Origin: Albifimbria verrucaria | Taxonomy: Eukaryota > Ascomycota > Sordariomycetes > Hypocreales > Stachybotryaceae | Reading direction: 5' to 3' | Length of the DNA stretch: 64,000 bases | Assembly (NCBI GenBank): GCA_020081605.1 | Contig: JAHREC010000062.1 | Location: 4,831,758 to 4,895,757, forward strand | Shown: positions 23,974 through 32,327 of the stretch, piece by piece | How positions within the stretch are numbered: the stretch's first letter is position 1 | Layout of the letters: every line of letters begins with the position of its first letter | Position numbers and translations under genes: made by a program | The notes under the pieces: generated by a model | Database searches by the model: none | Told to the model about the DNA's origin: nothing | What the model saw: only the letters and a program-made list of their open reading frames with translations

Positions 23974-26445
23974 ATGCAGAGCCCTGACCAAGCTGCTTCC
24001 AGCGGCAGACCTGCCCGTCCTTGCGATGCCTGCCGCAAGCGCAAACGCCGGTGCGTGGTAGAGCCTGGCAATTCCGCTTGCCAAATATGTCGGGCTGGAG
24101 CCGGAGAGTGTACCTTTCTCGAACCCGCAGCGGAGCGGGGATCCATCAAGCGCTCGGCCCCAGATCAGTCCGAACCCCTTCCAGTCAAGCGAGGCGTCCT
24201 GTGAGTTGAGAAGACCACGATAGTTGCTCTAGATCTTGCGGCCTACGCGCCGATACATGCTGACTTTTACTGGATAGGGTCGCCAGCTCGTCAGCGCACA
24301 CGGAACCCAGCCTGTTCAGTGATGCGACCGGGGTCATTGAAGACTATGACGCTCTGCCAGTGCCATCCCTTCTCAAGAAAAATCTTGGGCTGCAGCAACA
24401 TAGATATATACGGTACATTGGCCCATCGGATGAACTAGACTCGAACCTTCTGGCCCTTCGACCGGTGGACGAGAGGCAGGAGACTCGCTTTCCAGACGGC
24501 ACTAGCTGCCGTCGTGTCTCTCGCGACACCCACTTCGCCTTGGTGCCGTACAGTCGTACCCAGGTTCGTGCTCAGGAGTTGCAGGAGTTGGATGCTATTG
24601 AGAGGATTGTGCGGCCCCACGGCAAAAGCCTGGTCAACCTCTACTTTAGAATCATTCATCCATGTTTTCCCATTCTGGACAAAAAGTCGGTTTTTGCAAT
24701 CGTTTCCCCATCGGCCTCGGGCAGCTGACTAACGGGATGATCAGGACGTTCATGGAGAAATACGCACGCACTCACCAAGAATTCTCAGCACCCTGTCTCG
24801 CTGGAGTTTACATGCTCGCTTCGAAATGGTGGCATTATGATCGAGAACTATCTTCGCTCAAGAAGCCAGACATTGATGGGCTTGAGAATATAGCCTGCAC
24901 ATCCCTGCAGAGTGTGATACGTAGGCCAAAACTATCGACCATTCAAGGGGACTGCTTTTGATGCAGTATCAATGGTCCAGTGATGGAGCCTGGACCCTGA
25001 GCGCTCAGATGGTGGCTGTAGCACAAGAACTTGGGCTCGATGTGAATTGTGCAAGTTGGACTATTCCTACCTGGGAGAAAGGCTTGAGAAAGCGTCTAGG
25101 CTGGGCGGTCTACATGATGGATAAATGGTATTTACTGTTAAGGCTCCCTTTAATGGCAAACAAAACTAATCATTCTTCGAAGGATGGCATTGTGCCGTGG
25201 CCGGCCCTCGCACATTGTGGACGACGACTGGATTCCCGAAGATCTCTCTGACGAGGATTTGTCGGATAGCGTGGATGTGGCAGAGGATGAAGACAAAACC
25301 ATTGAAGGCAGCACAGAGATCATTGCTGGTGGAACCGCATTCAAATGGATGATCTCCTTGACGCACATTGTAAGTGAAATATTGCAAAAGTTCTAGTAAG
25401 TGATGTGCACTCTGTCTGTTCCTTGGCCGCAGCAGCTTACACGGCATTATTTAGTTCTCGAAAATCCCAAGCAGATGCGTCCTCCAATATCAGGACCGTT
25501 TTGGAGCAGATCAAGCCAGTTCAGGTTAAGTTGAGGGAATGGCATCGAAGTCTACCTATTTCACTCCAACTAGAAGCCACGCGCGCCCGACGATTATCAT
25601 CTAGTGCGTCCTTGCATCTGACGTATTTCACTGCAGAGGTCACTCTCCACCGTGTTATTTTATCGTCATTGCTACGCCATCCCTGTGATCCCTTCATTGT
25701 TCAGATTTGCCGTGATGCAGCCAAAGAACGAGTCACTTCGGCTGTTGACCTCGTGACAAGTCTGAAACCGCAGCATTTGCAAGCATTTTGGTATTTTCGT
25801 ACGTATCAGTCTCGAATCCTGCCCACATACGAGAAAGCTTACTAACTTCCACTCTAAGCCAGCGGTTACTGTCTCGTCACAATTGGAACATTTACAGCAC
25901 TGCTATTTATCACCTCCCAGACTATTTCCGAGGCCAAATTCTACAAGAAAACTCTGGACAACTATCGTTGGCTGCTTCGAGTCACAAGTCGTGCCACCGA
26001 GTACATGGATTTTGCCGTGCAAAGACTCGACCTATCTCTGTCGCATATTCACGAGTTAACGGCAGAGGATGTCGTCGGCCAATCCCTAGAAGAAGTAGAG
26101 ACAGTGAGCCCCGTCAATAAGGAAAGACAGCAAGGAGAGCGAAACACGGTCGACCAGGCCAGTAAGGCTTTAGACGCAAATGCCTGTGATTTACGACAAG
26201 AAGAGCAAGTGGTGCCTTTACCCCCACAGAACGAAGAACCAGGCGGCATGCAGTTTCAATTATCTTCTGATTGTTTTTATGAAGACGCTATCCTCAACGC
26301 TATTAGCGATGAAGCACTTCTACGAGGCGAGGTTATACAGCAAAATAGCCTTCTTACATCTTTGGCCCCAATATCCTCTGCGTTCGATGAATTGAAACGA
26401 CGCCGCGGACACTCGAGTATGATTACCAGCAATCTGACTAGTTAG
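23974..26445 (+). CDS. Zn2Cys6 transcription factor, TamA/DAL81-like
   Basis: The N-terminus holds a Zn2Cys6 cluster, CDACRKRKRRCV followed by CQICRAGAGECTF. Later parts resemble the TamA/DAL81/UGA35 group of nitrogen-catabolism co-activators: HRYIRYIGPSDELDSN, VNLYFRIIHPCFPILDK, FMEKYARTHQEFS, WEKGLRKRLGWAVYMMDKW, RPSHIVDDDW, RVTSRATEYMDFA. Introns are needed after KRGV (about 24200), after DKKS (ending CAG at about 24749), after DKW (about 25127), near 25396 and near 25800. A G4 run at 24947-24950 seems one base short; beyond it the frame reads LLMQYQWSSDGAW. Its position next to a nucleobase permease, a ring-opening amidase and an allophanate hydrolase fits a role in secondary nitrogen-source use; this role is inferred. 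Confidence 0.8.
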
Positions 26446-26699
26446 AAACAACGGCCTGCCCTAATGCCATGAACAAATAGAGATAACTGGACTTTCTTGA
26501 GTCAACCCACTCAAAGTCAATACAGAAAGGAAAATATTTTTGCCCATAATGAATACACATGCTATTATGCATCGCTTTCGGAAACATACCGGATTAATTG
26601 GATCTAAAATTGGACACAGATGCCATGATAATTGCCAATGAGAACAAAAATTCTTTGGTGCGAGACTGTACCTCGATACCAGGGCCGGATTTGATAAAT

Positions 26700-28402
26700 T
26701 TACGCCCCTAGTTTCTCGGCCATACGAACTTCATCAACACTAATTACAACAGCAGTGCCTGTCAATAACCAGTCTTTGGCCTTATCTTCACTTGACCCTT
26801 CCACTAGACTCTCAGCGGGGATTTTGAGGACCATACTTAGACAATAGTACACAACAGCAGCGATGACAACCCCTACCAACCAGTTCAGGGTATATATGTC
26901 TTGGAACCCTCCGGAATCTCGATGTCTTGGTTGACACTGTTTGCCAAACCCGGAAGTCCGGGTATGATAGCAACTAAGAATGCGGCAGCTGCGCGCAGAT
27001 TCCATCCTCTAGTATACCAATAGAATCCATGACGAATGTAGAGTTGTTCGAGGTTGAGATATCTCCTGCGCAAGATCCAATAGTCGCACAACATAATGCC
27101 ACACATGGGGCCGAGGAAAACGCTGTAGCCATTTAGGAAGTTGAGAAAGTTATCACTGCTGTGTAAAAGTTCCACGGCGTGGCGCAGACGGCCAAGACGG
27201 CGCAAATGAATTGGCCTCGGCGTACGTCAACCCATTTTGGCATCAAAGCCATGAGATCGTTGCCAAACGCTACAGTATTGCCAGCTATATTTGTGCAAAG
27301 AGTCGCAAAGGCGAACACGAAACTGACGAAGAAAGCTGCGGCACGGCTATCAAATCTGGCGATGACATCCAAAGGATCCCATTCAGGCTTGTCAAGGTTG
27401 TAAATGACGGCCGAGGCGGATGCCAAGGTTACACCCAAGAACGCAGTCAGGATGATGCATACCGGCATCATGATGACCTGCGCCCAAAGTGCGCCTCGAG
27501 GAGATTTGGCGTAGCGACAAAATCGCCCATGTTGAGCGCAAACGTTGCCTGTGGGCCTATAGCTGACGTGATGGCACTGAGAAAGAAAACAGCCGTCGAC
27601 TTGCCACCTGTAGGGGTTGTCGATTGCGAGAAGATTGGACCAAAGCCCTTGACTATGACGACGCTCCAGATGAAGAGGGCTATCCCGGCGAGTGGCATCA
27701 TGACCATTTTGATGAGGAAAAGCCAGCGAAGCTTGGAAACGTTGATATACAGGAATGGTAGACTGATGAACCAAAATATGAAAAAACATAGTAGGTTGAC
27801 AGATGTGATGTTGGCGCTTTCAGGCAGTTGGTTTGGTACACGGGCATCTAATGAAGGCCATATAGCTCGAAGCATCTGATATACGCAAGATCCTCTGTCT
27901 CCCTTTCGTGTCAGTCCATCTTTTATAAATTCATAGCATGATTCGCTCCGTGTCCATGATGCATAGATTTAGACGTACCCGGTTGAAATCTGGACACCAC
28001 ACCAGAAGATGGCGACAACACCTCTGACAGCGACGGCGAACTTACTCCCTGTAAGCCCCAACAAGCTCTGTTCATTACGGGGTAGTTGAGTCCCGTTTTG
28101 GCACCCACATACCCCGTGAGCGCGCAAGGGATCATTACGAGACATGTGCCGAGGACAATAGCCCCCATTGCCATCCCAGGGCTCAAACCATTCGCAATGA
28201 GCGAGCCTGCCATCTGCAATATTGGAATTTGGAACCCTTCAGAAATCCAGAAACCACCAACGCTGTACCAATTCCAAGTTCGTCGTGACATGGGAACGGG
28301 GTCCATGTCTCCATTTGAGAAGTCATTGCCAGGCAGGCATTTCGAAGGCCTAGGCTGAAGGGTAAACCTGCGGGGAAATATTTGGGATTTCATGTTCTTC
28401 AT
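26700..28402 (-). CDS. NCS1 nucleobase/cation symporter (Fur/Fcy-like permease)
   Basis: This is a plasma-membrane importer of purine/pyrimidine-type compounds of the NCS1 family. It begins with a polar tail, then MSRRTWNWYSVGGFW and SEGFQIPILQMAGSLIANGL (TM1, broken NCS1 helix), TGLNYPVMNRACWG, MLRAIWPS, GPQATFALNMGDF, CRYAKSPRGALWAQ, FATLCTNIAGNTVAFGNDL, NGYSVFLGPMCGIMLCDYW and LNLEQLYIRHGFYWY. An intron at about 27900-27985 joins QISTG to CVYQML. Four one-base losses break it: near 28050, A4 at 27519-27522, A4 at 27165-27168 and C3 at 26907-26909, all in short runs. Corrected length would be about 530-550 residues, normal for the family. It is co-oriented with the ring-opening amidase upstream. 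Confidence 0.85.
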
Positions 28403-28562
28403 AACATAAGTCGAACGATGATGTTTGAGACCTCTTCCTATTTTCTGATTTTGGTATCAGGCCTTCATGATATATACGTTTCTGGGCCATCCTTAGAGGA
28501 TCTTAATGAAGCTAGACTAACTTAACCCCTTCGAGGGATCAACTGGAAGGTCTGACGAACAC

Positions 28563-28793
28563 CGATAAGCATGATTGATTCATCATGATATTTTTCTCCG
28601 AATAAGTCTATCTATAATGTTGCTCTATGACATGGATGCTGTCTAAAGCTTGGCCGCCTTATCTTGGTGTATCAGCGTGGTGGCTATATTCGATAGCACT
28701 TGTTGATTGACGGAAGCGGCCCGCATTTGTGGCCGTTGGCTCGCGCCATGTATCTCGGCGGGCCGCCGACTTCGGATTGCTCCCATCTTATCT
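28563..28793. promoter_or_regulatory. GATA-factor site cluster
   Basis: Three seven-base sites match the HGATAR core bound by the AreA/NIT2 nitrogen regulator: CGATAAG at 28563-28569 on the plus strand, and AGATAAG on the minus strand at 28659-28665 and 28787-28793. They lie 160-390 bp upstream of the permease start. Such sites occur often by chance; the clustering and the function of the gene are what support them. Confidence 0.4.
28755..28769. promoter_or_regulatory. palindrome TCGGCGG-G-CCGCCGA, putative Zn2Cys6 operator
   Basis: A perfect 7-bp inverted repeat around a single G. It holds facing CGG/CCG triplets, the half-sites of Zn2Cys6 dimers. Its 11-bp core GGCGGGCCGCC (28757-28767) recurs at 30576-30586 in the shared promoter of the two hydrolase genes. 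It lies about 350 bp upstream of the permease start. Confidence 0.55.
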
Positions 28794-29188
28794 GACTTCT
28801 GGTTCTCCACTCTGTAGGTTGCGCCCGCTCTTGGAGTGATGGGGAATCAACCCCAAGCTCTGAGCTCAACGTTAGAGAAAGCTATCACACTTGCCACAGC
28901 AACGAGAATGTAGATGTAGAAGTGATTTTTAATATTGAAATGCTAGCCAGCAACTGGTATGAAATTCCATTGACTCTAGTTGATTTTACAACTATTTAAC
29001 AAGGTATAACCTGTTTCTCTCGGATTCTGGGGACCATCGTTGATACTGAATTTCCAACTAAGCCAGGTTGATCATGCTTTGGAGCTAGGGGCTTATGGAG
29101 GCCAAAAGTGGGAGCATGCGAACGATAAAGTGACCAAAACGAATTGACACCATGATGCCTTTGGTTCGCTCAATGCATGATAGTGGTT

Positions 29189-30310
29189 CTAGCTACTCGT
29201 CTTGTAAACCAAACACAAACTTCCTCCGCCAGACGGCCCTTGTCCTTCAGCGCCACCACTAACGTACACTTGCGTATCCGCTACCAGGCCCGCGATCAAT
29301 CCACCTACAGCAGCCCTCGCATGTCTCGTGCTGTGAATATCACTATCTGTGTTCATGGTGTGGCGATGACCTCTGATGCGGCCCGAGGGGTCGGCCTCGG
29401 CCTTGGCAAATACCTGCACGACCTCACCACCATCCTGCTTGACTTGTGCTACCAAAGCCAGGATGGATGCGGCATCAATTGCATCTGCCATTGGTCGAGA
29501 AATCGCGTGAAGATGCGCATCGTCAGATGGCGTTGCAGCCAAGACGAGAATGTGGCAGTTTTCAAGCTCCGCACCACTACTACAGCTTGCCTTTGCGCTC
29601 CATTTCTCTTCTTTCATCATAGCTTCAGGAATTTCAGAATCCTGCATCTCACCTAAAGCTGTGGCAATACCGATAGCGCTAGCGTACCGTGATTTGGCCA
29701 TGCTTTCATACGTGTCCACGGTGATGGGCACTTTGCCCCGTCCCGGATTGCTTGCAGTTTGTCGCTTGTCAAGAGCGGGCATTTGACAAGCACCAGGTGC
29801 ACGTGCTCTGCGCTGACAGACATCTTATTGATCAATTGGGTGACTGTCACAGCTACCTGGCGAGCCTGCTCATCCGTACCAACCTCTTCAGGTGCGAGTA
29901 TCCGCGTGTGACCAACGGCTGCGGCTAACCCCGTCTCTTTGCCGGCAGTGGACTGAAGGAAAAAGGTCACATGAGGGCTGAGGATGCCTTCAGTGCCGCC
30001 AGAGAAAATTGTGACTGCATCTGAGGGGATCTGGGGCTCCCAAACCGCAGCTGCGAGGGTACGTGAGAAATCGTTGACACAACCATTGCCTGTGGTAAGG
30101 CAATTCGACACAGTGGTCAGCATGTTTTCTTTGTTGGAGAGTAGTTCATCAAGAGAAGTAGGCAAAGGACAATTAAATGTGCCTACCTTCGGTTTTTCCG
30201 ACAACTGCGACAATCTGAGATGCATCATAGCCTGCTTCTTGAAGCCTTTTCAACGGAGAAACATCTGCTGGCGAGGATATTGGGTATTTGAGTATTTCAA
30301 CTGGCGCCAT
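29189..30310 (-). CDS. ring-opening amidase (cyanuric acid hydrolase/barbiturase family)
   Basis: This family (AtzD/TrzD, barbiturase) hydrolyses one amide of a cyclic imide: cyanuric acid to carboxybiuret, or barbiturate to ureidomalonate. The fold is three repeats, each giving a Ser-Lys pair. All three pairs are visible: KTEGNG with SGGTEG, VKCPLL with SSGAEL, and AKAEADPSG with VSGGAEGQGP. GRIRGHRHTMNTDSDIH is also typical. The start at 30310 and a 97-nt intron (30090-30186) restore KTEGNG exactly. A C4 run at 29736-29739 (plus strand) seems one base short and breaks the frame between repeats 2 and 3. Corrected length is about 340 residues, near the family norm. It is divergent from an allophanate hydrolase-like gene and upstream of an NCS1 permease. 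Cyanurate versus barbiturate specificity cannot be read from the sequence. Confidence 0.88.
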
Positions 30311-30809
30311 GGTGTGTCCGTTGTGGTAGAACGGCGCGCATCGACGAGAGCAGCTTAGAGGAAGTCCGTAGGTAGAAAAAGTACGGCTGAAGACTGGCTC
30401 GCTTGGCTTTGAATTCCTGAATGCATCTGGGAACAATTGTTTGGAGCTGAGATATATGAAAACATAGGTGAGCCGACAACCCCGCCTACTATCTTCTGGA
30501 CTAACCCTTCTTTTGATTTGGGGCTTACAATATCTAATTGGCACTCCGCCGGCCCGTCTATAAGCGTGTGCCGCTGGCGGGCCGCCATCTGTGGATCCGC
30601 CTCTTGAGTCTCTTATCAGCTCTTGGTTTTGTTATAAGCCAAGCACAGAACATGATCGGATGCAGGACATATGATTAAGCGGAGGCTTCAGCTTACTGAA
30701 GTCCACGACACATACAACCAGGACACGTTACAAGTTTGCCTTACTTCTTTTACCCCGGGTCTCTAGCACTCTTTTCACTCCCACTTTCGGAACAACACCC
30801 AAAGCAAAA
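30311..30809. promoter_or_regulatory. bidirectional promoter of the two hydrolase genes
   Basis: This 499-bp gap separates divergent ring-opening amidase and amidase genes. It carries GGCGGGCCGCC at 30576-30586, a related GC-rich half-palindrome at 30546-30556 (CCGCCGGCCCG) and a GATA-type site (minus-strand TGATAAG) at 30612-30618. A shared control region would allow joint induction of both genes. Confidence 0.55.
30576..30586. promoter_or_regulatory. 11-bp palindrome, second copy
   Basis: GGCGGGCCGCC: identical to the core of the inverted repeat upstream of the permease gene (28757-28767). Flanking bases differ, so the match is not part of a longer duplication. It lies about 225 bp upstream of the allophanate hydrolase-like start and 265 bp upstream of the ring-opening amidase start. 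Confidence 0.55.
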
Positions 30810-32327
30810 ATGTCTCCCGCAGCTCTGAGCCCCAATCCTGTTCAGAACATCTTGGTGAACGGGGTGAAGGTACCTCATCTCGCCCATTCTTCTACGGCGC
30901 GTGAATGGGAAAACGCCGATCTGAGCATCGAGTTTCTTCAAAAATTATATGCTTGCAACTCTGCCACACCGATTGATGTCATCCACTCGGTATATAGAAG
31001 GATAAGCGAGCATCAGAGCAAAGCAGTTTGGATCACTCTGGTGCCAGAAACGGAGGCTTTGGCGAAAGCCGAGAAACTTATTCAAGCTTATCCCGACCCC
31101 GATTCGAGACCGCCCTTATACGGTGTCCCCTTTTCCGTCAAGGATTCAATAGACATTGCTGGGCTTCCAACAACACTAGCATGTCCTAGCTACGCCTATC
31201 AGGCCACAGAAACAGCGCCTGTGGTACAACGCATCCTAGAAGCTGGCGGTATTTTGATTGGCAAAACAAATCTGGACCAATTCGCCACAGGATTGAATGG
31301 AACCCGGTCGCCATATGGCACGCCACGCTGTGTCCATGACGAAGATTACGTTTCGGGCGGTAGCTCCTCCGGCTCAGTGGTTAGTGTCGCGGCAGGTCTC
31401 GTCTCTTTCAGTGTTGCTACAGATACAGCTGGAAGCACTCGTGTTCCTGCAGCTCTCAACGGTGTGGTGGGTTTGAAACCAACTTTAGGCATCATTTCAA
31501 CCGTCGGCTTAGTGCCGGCATGTAAAACGGCAGACTGCATCACCATTATGGCGAAGACTGTGCACTCAACCCGCATGGCTTTGCAGATTATGCGAGGGTA
31601 CGATGAGAATGATGTCTATGCACGAGACATCTTGCAACTTTCTGCTTTGGCGGCACAGCCGTCCTGGTGGGATGGAAGGGGTGGCGGCAAAGTCAAATAT
31701 GCTTTACCACCTCCAGCTCTTGTAGCTTCTGTCTTGTCGGAGCCATACAGTATCTTATTCCGCAATGTGGTTGAGAAACTTTCGAGGCTGAGCTTTATGA
31801 CACCTGTGGACGATGATGGCTTTGATTACACTCCATTTGCCAATGCTAATGCCATGCTCTATGGCAGCTCCATAGTCTCACAACGCATCGTTGCGTTCAA
31901 ATCCTATTTGGACTCCAAAGGTATGGCTGATCTGCATCCAGTCATCCGCGAGATATTTAGCGCAAGTGGTGGGTTTGATGCTGTACGAGCGTACGAGGAT
32001 ATCTTCTCTCTAGCCGAGTACAAGAGAAACGCCTCCAAACAATTCCGTCTGTCAGCCTCGAGTGGCATCGATGTGCTCGTTGTACCGTCTACAGCTGTCC
32101 ATCCGACGGTCGATGAGATACTCGCGGATCCTATTGATCTCAATAAACGACTCGGCAGTTTCACCCATTTTGTTAACCTCCTTGACCTTTGCGCAGTTGC
32201 AGTACCTGTAGGTGGGCAGTGGGCAAGCAAGAATGGGAAGACCATGCCATTCGGTATTACTCTCATTTCGACTCCAGGGCACGATGAAGATTTATTAGAG
32301 TTGGCCCAGAGGCTAATGTACGAATAA
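30810..32327 (+). CDS. allophanate hydrolase-like amidase (amidase-signature family)
   Basis: An intact intron-free frame of 505 residues. It has the amidase-signature catalytic set: Lys in YGVPFSVKDSID, cis-Ser in GGSSSGS, and nucleophile Ser in TDTAGSTRVPAA. The sequences PTTLACPSYAY, IGKTNLDQFATGLNGTRSPYG and GLVPACKTADC are typical of allophanate hydrolases (AtzF, and the hydrolase half of urea amidolyase), which split allophanate to ammonia and CO2. It stops at the end of the amidase domain (FGITLISTPGHDEDLLELA), so the extra C-terminal domain of AtzF and the biotin carboxylase part of fungal urea amidolyase are absent. The neighbouring cyclic-imide hydrolase suggests it finishes that pathway. 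A ureidomalonase role is the main alternative. Confidence 0.88.
   Translation: MSPAALSPNPVQNILVNGVKVPHLAHSSTAREWENADLSIEFLQKLYACNSATPIDVIHSVYRRISEHQSKAVWITLVPETEALAKAEKLIQAYPDPDSRPPLYGVPFSVKDSIDIAGLPTTLACPSYAYQATETAPVVQRILEAGGILIGKTNLDQFATGLNGTRSPYGTPRCVHDEDYVSGGSSSGSVVSVAAGLVSFSVATDTAGSTRVPAALNGVVGLKPTLGIISTVGLVPACKTADCITIMAKTVHSTRMALQIMRGYDENDVYARDILQLSALAAQPSWWDGRGGGKVKYALPPPALVASVLSEPYSILFRNVVEKLSRLSFMTPVDDDGFDYTPFANANAMLYGSSIVSQRIVAFKSYLDSKGMADLHPVIREIFSASGGFDAVRAYEDIFSLAEYKRNASKQFRLSASSGIDVLVVPSTAVHPTVDEILADPIDLNKRLGSFTHFVNLLDLCAVAVPVGGQWASKNGKTMPFGITLISTPGHDEDLLELAQRLMYE

Follow-up and report, generated by a model that had tools for sequence, protein, structure and literature searches.

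The stretch of DNA considered here, a 64-kb window of the Albifimbria verrucaria genome, lies on contig C41 (5.08 Mb), 183 kb from the contig end, in an assembly of 48.4 Mb and 41 contigs. Within 8.4 kb it carries four genes whose families were matched by domain profiles: a Zn2Cys6/Fungal_trans regulator, a nucleobase-type permease of the NCS1 family, a cyanuric acid hydrolase-type ring-opening amidase of the AtzD family (called ring-opener below) and a stand-alone allophanate hydrolase-like amidase (Table 1). A preliminary description of the locus had claimed this set of genes, with the two hydrolases divergent from one promoter. All four were located where it had placed them. The regulator, TamA/DAL81-like in that description, is recognised here by its Zn2Cys6 and Fungal_trans domains and its paralogues. 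The start codons of the ring-opener and the amidase stand 499 bases apart in divergent orientation. We consider it likely, from sequence comparison, that these genes form a conserved fungal cluster for scavenging nitrogen from cyanuric acid and represent one half of a two-locus cyanurate/biuret regulon, the other half lying on contig C15.

Table 1. Positions of the features discussed (window coordinates unless a contig is named) and locus tags of the paired genes in other fungi
Feature	Position or locus tags	Strand	Remarks
Zn2Cys6/Fungal_trans regulator gene	23974..26445	+	several exons; PF00172 24.3 bits, PF04082 33.3 bits
NCS1 nucleobase-type permease gene	26700..28402	-	PF02133 in three pieces; overlapping tblastn pieces
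Palindrome GGCGGGCCGCC, permease promoter	28757..28767	.	~355 bases ahead of permease start codon
Cyanuric acid hydrolase-type gene (AtzD family), ring-opener	29189..30310	-	PF09663 31.2, 116 and 215.6 bits in three pieces
Ring-opener, exon 1	30310-30187	-	
Ring-opener, intron	30186-30090	-	97 bases, sole intron; then coding to 29189
Divergent promoter common to ring-opener and amidase	30311..30809	.	start codons 30310 (-), 30810 (+)
Palindrome GGCGGGCCGCC, divergent promoter	30576..30586	.	
Allophanate hydrolase-like amidase gene	30810..32327	+	505 residues, frame intact; NF006043 487.4 bits
BiuH-like gene and allophanate hydrolase-like amidase	C15:231000-239000	-	divergent from second NCS1 permease
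Stachybotrys chartarum	S40288_03852/03853		consecutive tags, ring-opener and amidase
Sarocladium strictum	NLU13_2446/2447		consecutive tags, ring-opener and amidase
Emericellopsis cladophorae	J7T54_004673/004674/004675		permease, ring-opener, amidase; gene order as in window
Knufia peltigerae	H2204_002903/002904		consecutive tags, ring-opener and amidase
Claussenomyces	M1818_005500/005501		consecutive tags, ring-opener and amidase

Recurrence of the cluster and integrity of its genes

In five other fungi the locus tags of the ring-opener and the amidase directly follow one another (Table 1). When contigs of identical size are taken to be the same, a procedure that can miss pairs (as in Knufia), a contig partner among the 120 amidase rows listed is found for 19 of the 120 ring-opener rows listed, and one among the 82 NCS1 rows for which a size is given is found for 8 of the 120. 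These counts are lower bounds because the matches listed are the best 120 of 5,575 and of 8,000, and on chromosome-sized contigs sharing a contig does not by itself show closeness. All three genes occur together on six contigs, namely that of E. cladophorae, three from Aspergillus and two from metagenomes, one of which measures 7,665 bases. Among the NCS1 rows, a contig is shared with a ring-opener or an amidase by 10 of the 23 best and by 1 of the 59 others. Judged by contig or by tags, the ring-opener and amidase are paired in Hypocreales, Eurotiales, Coniochaetales, Chaetothyriales and Leotiales. The neighbourhood conserved among relatives that the preliminary description had proposed to look for was thus found for ring-opener, amidase and permease.

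The closest named matches of the cluster proteins belong to Hypocreales such as Paramyrothecium, Stachybotrys, Sarocladium and Emericellopsis. The ring-opener is 79% identical to Paramyrothecium P0002 and 96% to metagenome P0001 (over 89%), and the permease 83% to Stachybotrys P0241 and 97% to metagenome P0243 (query coverage 74%). On one JGI metagenome contig, 49,487 bases long, all of ring-opener, amidase and permease are present in versions 96-97% identical to those of the window. The NCS1 cut-off of TIGR00800 (353.1 bits) is reached by two orthologues of the window permease (357.2 and 360.6 bits), the window gene itself being matched only in pieces.

Read by eye, three of the four genes contain frame breaks that leave no room for an intron: at least one in the regulator, four in the permease and one in the ring-opener near 29.7 kb. 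Taken alone, these breaks could mean that the cluster is decaying and that the three genes have become pseudogenes. However, the HEM1 copy on contig C36 shows a similar break, with two frames abutting at a single base, as does the urea amidolyase gene, in which a domain continues in an overlapping frame. The active-site residues of the ring-opener are retained, its 96%-identical metagenome copy P0001 is uninterrupted from exon 2 onward and the frame of the amidase is intact. Because like breaks affect HEM1 and urea amidolyase, and because the near-identical ring-opener is unbroken, we read them as assembly errors rather than decay, and we regard the pseudogene explanation as extremely improbable.

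Probable substrates of the ring-opener and the amidase

No PF09663 gene other than the ring-opener was found in the genome. The three Ser-Lys dyads of the ring-opener, already noticed in the preliminary description, are all present in a read-through alignment (K39/S71, K144/S212 and K271/S319, numbered with an X at the frame break). Residues that separate cyanuric acid hydrolases from barbiturases have been proposed: Arg194 and Arg324 of AtzD define the former in the available part of one study (PMC9118981), and the accessible text of another, on the Azorhizobium enzyme, gives the barbiturase group a Gln where most groups carry Arg188 and describes the Ser226-Lys156 dyad as absolutely conserved (PMC4051656). 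We aligned the window protein with the 120 listed homologues and with the 77 usable sequences of 80 bacterial ones. Counterparts of both AtzD arginines and of Lys156 are found in the window protein, in 120/120 listed homologues and in 77/77 bacterial sequences, so that the Gln expected of a barbiturase at the position of Arg194 is replaced by Arg throughout. The serine matching Ser226 is present in 117 of the listed homologues and the first-exon lysine in 88, many rows being without that exon; both occur in all 77 bacterial sequences.

In a midpoint-rooted tree of 112 rows (the window protein, 34 of the 120 homologues and 77 of the 80 bacterial sequences), the 35 fungal and metagenome rows form one clade (99) that falls on the same side as 29 Actinomycetota (100). 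Actinobacterial ring-opener loci, with flanks of up to 8 kb, contain a BiuH-like match in 30 of 30 cases and an AtzF-like match in 13 of 30.

These data bear on a different assignment, in which the ring-opener would be a barbiturase and the amidase a ureidomalonase, both acting in a fungal oxidative route of pyrimidine breakdown. Barbiturase belongs to the same protein family as the ring-opener, and NCS1 permeases carry pyrimidines. The barbiturase structure 5hwe is also matched, though less strongly than cyanuric acid hydrolases (93.3 vs 145.8 bits and 42.9 vs 67.8 bits). Nevertheless, the residue alignment disfavours this assignment: both arginines of cyanuric acid hydrolases are retained, whereas the barbiturase group, according to the part of PMC4051656 at hand, has Gln at one of them. 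In addition, the closest bacterial relatives adjoin BiuH-like genes and the window amidase resembles AtzF. A barbiturase is accordingly a very improbable identity, and since the AtzD-type arginines are retained we favour cyanurate over barbiturate, the ring-opener looking like a cyanuric acid hydrolase. The earlier proposal of a cyanurate- or barbiturate-like ring would in this way be narrowed to its first half.

The amidase scores 487.4 bits against the allophanate hydrolase model NF006043, exceeding its cut-off of 487 by 0.4, and stays under the equivalog cut-off of TIGR02713 (451.1 vs 511.05 bits). Its best matches in the PDB are the allophanate hydrolases 4cp8 (344.5 bits) and 4gyr (335.9 bits), urea amidolyase 5i8i reaching 263.4 bits, and it is AtzF-like rather than AtzE-like (487.4 vs 186.1 bits). 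The catalytic Lys/Ser/Ser of the amidase signature are present. A Tyr and an Arg, which we take to be the residues recognising allophanate, are kept in the window protein and in 118/120 and 120/120 of the listed homologues, respectively. The C-terminal domain AH_C gives no match in the window protein or in any of the four orthologues scanned; the urea amidolyase of the same genome retains it. The amidase can be described, as it was from the outset, as a stand-alone allophanate hydrolase-like enzyme.

The amidase tree comprised 27 bacterial rows and 41 of the 120 homologues besides the window protein and the piece encoded on C15; the piece from urea amidolyase was not included. In this tree P0128, labelled Coniochaeta pulveracea (Coniochaetales), clusters with the window protein (95/93) in the midst of Hypocreales sequences, which reflects either a mislabelled contig or horizontal transfer.

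A second locus, a shared palindrome and a family of regulators

On contig C15 a BiuH-like gene and a further allophanate hydrolase-like amidase stand divergent from a second NCS1 permease (Table 1). The BiuH-like gene is recovered in two pieces whose only NCBIfam match is NF050097 and whose top structure match is Rhizobium BiuH (68.4 and 48.5 bits). The reference residues of that enzyme are a catalytic Asp-Lys-Cys triad and Gln215, as given in the accessible part of PMC5806882; Gln215 and Cys175 are kept in the structure alignment, and counterparts of Asp36, Lys142 and Lys145 can be read by eye in the three-frame translation. The reading frame of the BiuH-like gene enters the apparent first helix of the amidase without a stop, and the amidase has, in its own frame, no Met ahead of the catalytic Lys. 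Joining the BiuH tail to the amidase raises the profile score from 393.2 to 398.5 bits with a longer match, against at most 392.5 bits for 20 shuffled tails. We conclude with moderate confidence, because of a frame break at the joint, that a biuret hydrolase is here predicted to be fused to an allophanate hydrolase-like amidase. Pieces of AMP-binding and reductase-like domains lie ~4-7 kb beyond the C15 permease. An isochorismatase-like gene on contig C33 was set aside as biuret hydrolase because, among structures, it matches RutB best (99.6 bits vs 77.6 for the best BiuH).

The window amidase might alternatively cleave 1-carboxybiuret directly, as bacterial AtzEG does, in which case the cluster would by-pass biuret and the BiuH-like enzyme of C15 would serve free biuret only. 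The adjacency of amidase and ring-opener in other fungi fits such an arrangement, as do the lack of a biuret hydrolase found in the window, the availability of allophanate hydrolase parts from C15 and from urea amidolyase, and the missing AtzF C-terminal domain; moreover, bacterial routes via 1-carboxybiuret and via biuret are both described in the available text of PMC6219798. The preponderance of AtzF-like over AtzE-like scores and the retention of the presumed allophanate residues argue for allophanate, and direct cleavage of 1-carboxybiuret appears to us improbable.

A common control of the two loci is suggested by the palindrome GGCGGNCCGCC, which has two copies in the 64-kb window (0.02 expected), one in the promoter of the permease and the other in that common to ring-opener and amidase; a third copy lies in the divergent promoter of C15. 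Three of its 31 sites in the genome thus fall within three promoters totalling 2,010 bases of 48.4 Mb. With 11 bases it is the longest string common to these promoters; none of 2,000 dinucleotide shuffles of the three promoters reaches 11 shared bases (two reach 10), and neither does any of 4,000 non-overlapping random triples drawn from eight stretches of the genome with the HEM1 locus excluded (three reach 10). A shorter core, GCGGNCCGC, has three occurrences in the 64 kb, all in the two window promoters. Since an inverted CGG repeat is a common type of Zn2Cys6 site, the window regulator or one of its paralogues is the natural candidate for binding it.

It could also be that the palindrome is a chance occurrence or a general promoter element and that the two loci are not co-regulated. 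The pattern was chosen by eye before testing, so that its statistics are after the fact, and its genome-wide count equals chance (31 vs 29 sites in a reversed control). A laxer control that admits overlapping and paralogous stretches yields 14 of 3,000 triples sharing at least 11 bases, two of them long self-matches. GGCGGNCCGCC occurs neither in the stretch upstream of the regulator gene nor, even with one mismatch allowed, in the urea amidolyase promoter; the latter locus was consequently rejected as a member of the group. Finally, Zn2Cys6 proteins of many kinds could use an inverted CGG repeat. Against these points stand the presence of 3 of the 31 genomic sites in just those three promoters, and the fact that their longest common string is the palindrome itself, at a length that neither strict control attains. 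We hold the chance explanation to be unlikely, although it deserves more weight than any other alternative considered here, and we retain co-regulation of the two loci as the preferred reading.

Paralogues of the window regulator are found beside the urea amidolyase gene, from which one of them diverges (C6:3212 kb), beside a pair formed by an NCS1 gene and a hydantoinase/oxoprolinase-like gene (C6:3200 kb) and at C4:983.1 kb, 6.8 kb from a urease match (989.8 kb). The closest of the paralogues compared lies on contig C8, by four of six pieces. Such surroundings fit the view that the window regulator would belong to a family of nitrogen-pathway regulators. The interval C6:3192000-3219900, with two regulator paralogues ~10 kb apart, an NCS1 gene, a hydantoinase/oxoprolinase-like gene and urea amidolyase, is possibly a larger nitrogen region. 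Two urease alpha matches are present in the genome (C4:989847 and C15:4266452).

As for the surroundings of the cluster itself, a 5-aminolevulinate synthase gene with frame breaks adjoins it (window 18.8-20.5 kb), in addition to the HEM1 copy on C36, and two HET-domain genes lie close by (window 41.4-47.7 kb).

Proposed pathway and its relation to known systems

In the pathway that we propose, the NCS1 permease would import the ring and the AtzD-type enzyme would open it to 1-carboxybiuret, which, by the chemistry of the family, would lose CO2 spontaneously to give biuret. The BiuH-like enzyme of C15 would convert biuret to allophanate, and cleavage of allophanate by the window amidase, the BiuH-fused amidase part and/or urea amidolyase would release ammonia and CO2, genes for all three of these enzymes being present. 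The window Zn2Cys6 regulator or a paralogue would probably activate both loci through GGCGGNCCGCC in the three promoters. Substrates, transport, the pairing of regulator and site and co-expression are what we infer in this scheme.

Besides those on the palindrome, several observations weigh against it. The window yielded no match to BiuH or the isochorismatase family, one such match, to isochorismatase, being situated 29 kb ahead of it; the single uptake-and-degradation unit of the preliminary description consequently stands as a conserved neighbourhood and falls short as a complete pathway, the biuret step being probably encoded at C15. The two C15 BiuH pieces score 80.3 and 50.1 bits against NF050097, far below its cut-off of 370, for a gene recovered in pieces. 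Structure 6xj4, presumably a triuret hydrolase (a cysteine hydrolase), follows close behind BiuH for one piece (65.6 vs 68.4 bits) and reaches 35.5 bits for the other. The ring-opener matches SGGxExQGPxGGGP, the motif published for cyanuric acid hydrolases, except for the final residue, Ser for Pro, a replacement also seen in 106/120 listed homologues and 27/77 bacterial sequences. Among eight of its orthologues (317-363 bits), one exceeds the cut-off of 360 bits of the cyanuric acid hydrolase equivalog NF052395; the seven below it score 317-356 bits, three of them with a missing or misjoined first exon, and the frame-broken window gene was scored in pieces only. An NCS1 permease was found in 0 of 80 bacterial ring-opener loci within the fetched flanks. 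At least 12 named species that figure in both lists have their ring-opener and amidase rows on different contigs, although rows of one species may stem from different strains: these are seven basidiomycete yeasts (Rhodosporidiobolus, Sporobolomyces and Phenoliferia), two Cladophialophora, Fonsecaea erecta, a Thozetella and Exophiala viscosa.

A bolder version of the scheme can be formulated, in which an old fungal cyanurate/biuret regulon would be governed by one Zn2Cys6 factor through GGCGGNCCGCC, would include a single-chain biuret hydrolase-allophanate hydrolase and would employ the window amidase as a one-protein counterpart of AtzEG taking 1-carboxybiuret. We consider this combination a long shot, a shade less probable than direct cleavage of 1-carboxybiuret taken by itself.

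Discussions of cyanuric acid usually treat it as a synthetic chemical that bacteria break down. The pairing of ring-opener and amidase across five fungal orders suggests that many fungi may long have used cyanurate or a close ring as nitrogen source, and a natural supply may therefore exist. The cluster also names candidate genes for the removal of triazine residues by fungi, together with a candidate fungal transporter of cyanurate or biuret, and a single short palindrome makes its regulation testable.

The fungal cyanuric acid hydrolase as such is already known: it is said to have been described by Dodge, Preiner and Wackett in 2013 (J Bacteriol 195:5233), reportedly from Sarocladium. The window ring-opener, a member of the same enzyme family, is 77% identical to its homologue from Sarocladium strictum. 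Searches of an open-licence library, to which most subscription papers do not belong, gave no description of the cluster of permease, hydrolase and amidase in fungi, nor of the second locus, the palindrome or the fusion. The fungal urea amidolyase (DUR1,2), encoded here on contig C6, shares with the system an allophanate hydrolase part and an adjoining paralogous Zn2Cys6 regulator; unlike the window amidase, it is fused to urea carboxylase, keeps AH_C and has a promoter without the palindrome. The atzDGEHF operon of Pseudomonas sp. ADP has the AtzD and AtzF families in common with the fungal cluster but, in the available text of PMC6219798, runs via 1-carboxybiuret with AtzEG and AtzH. The closest parallel in enzyme families and reaction order is the biuret-dependent pathway of Rhizobium leguminosarum 3841, as presented in the accessible parts of PMC6219798 and PMC5806882. 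In contrast to that pathway, the fungal genes occupy two unlinked loci with one NCS1 permease gene at each, the window amidase is without the C-terminal domain, BiuH is apparently fused to an amidase and the promoters carry the palindrome.

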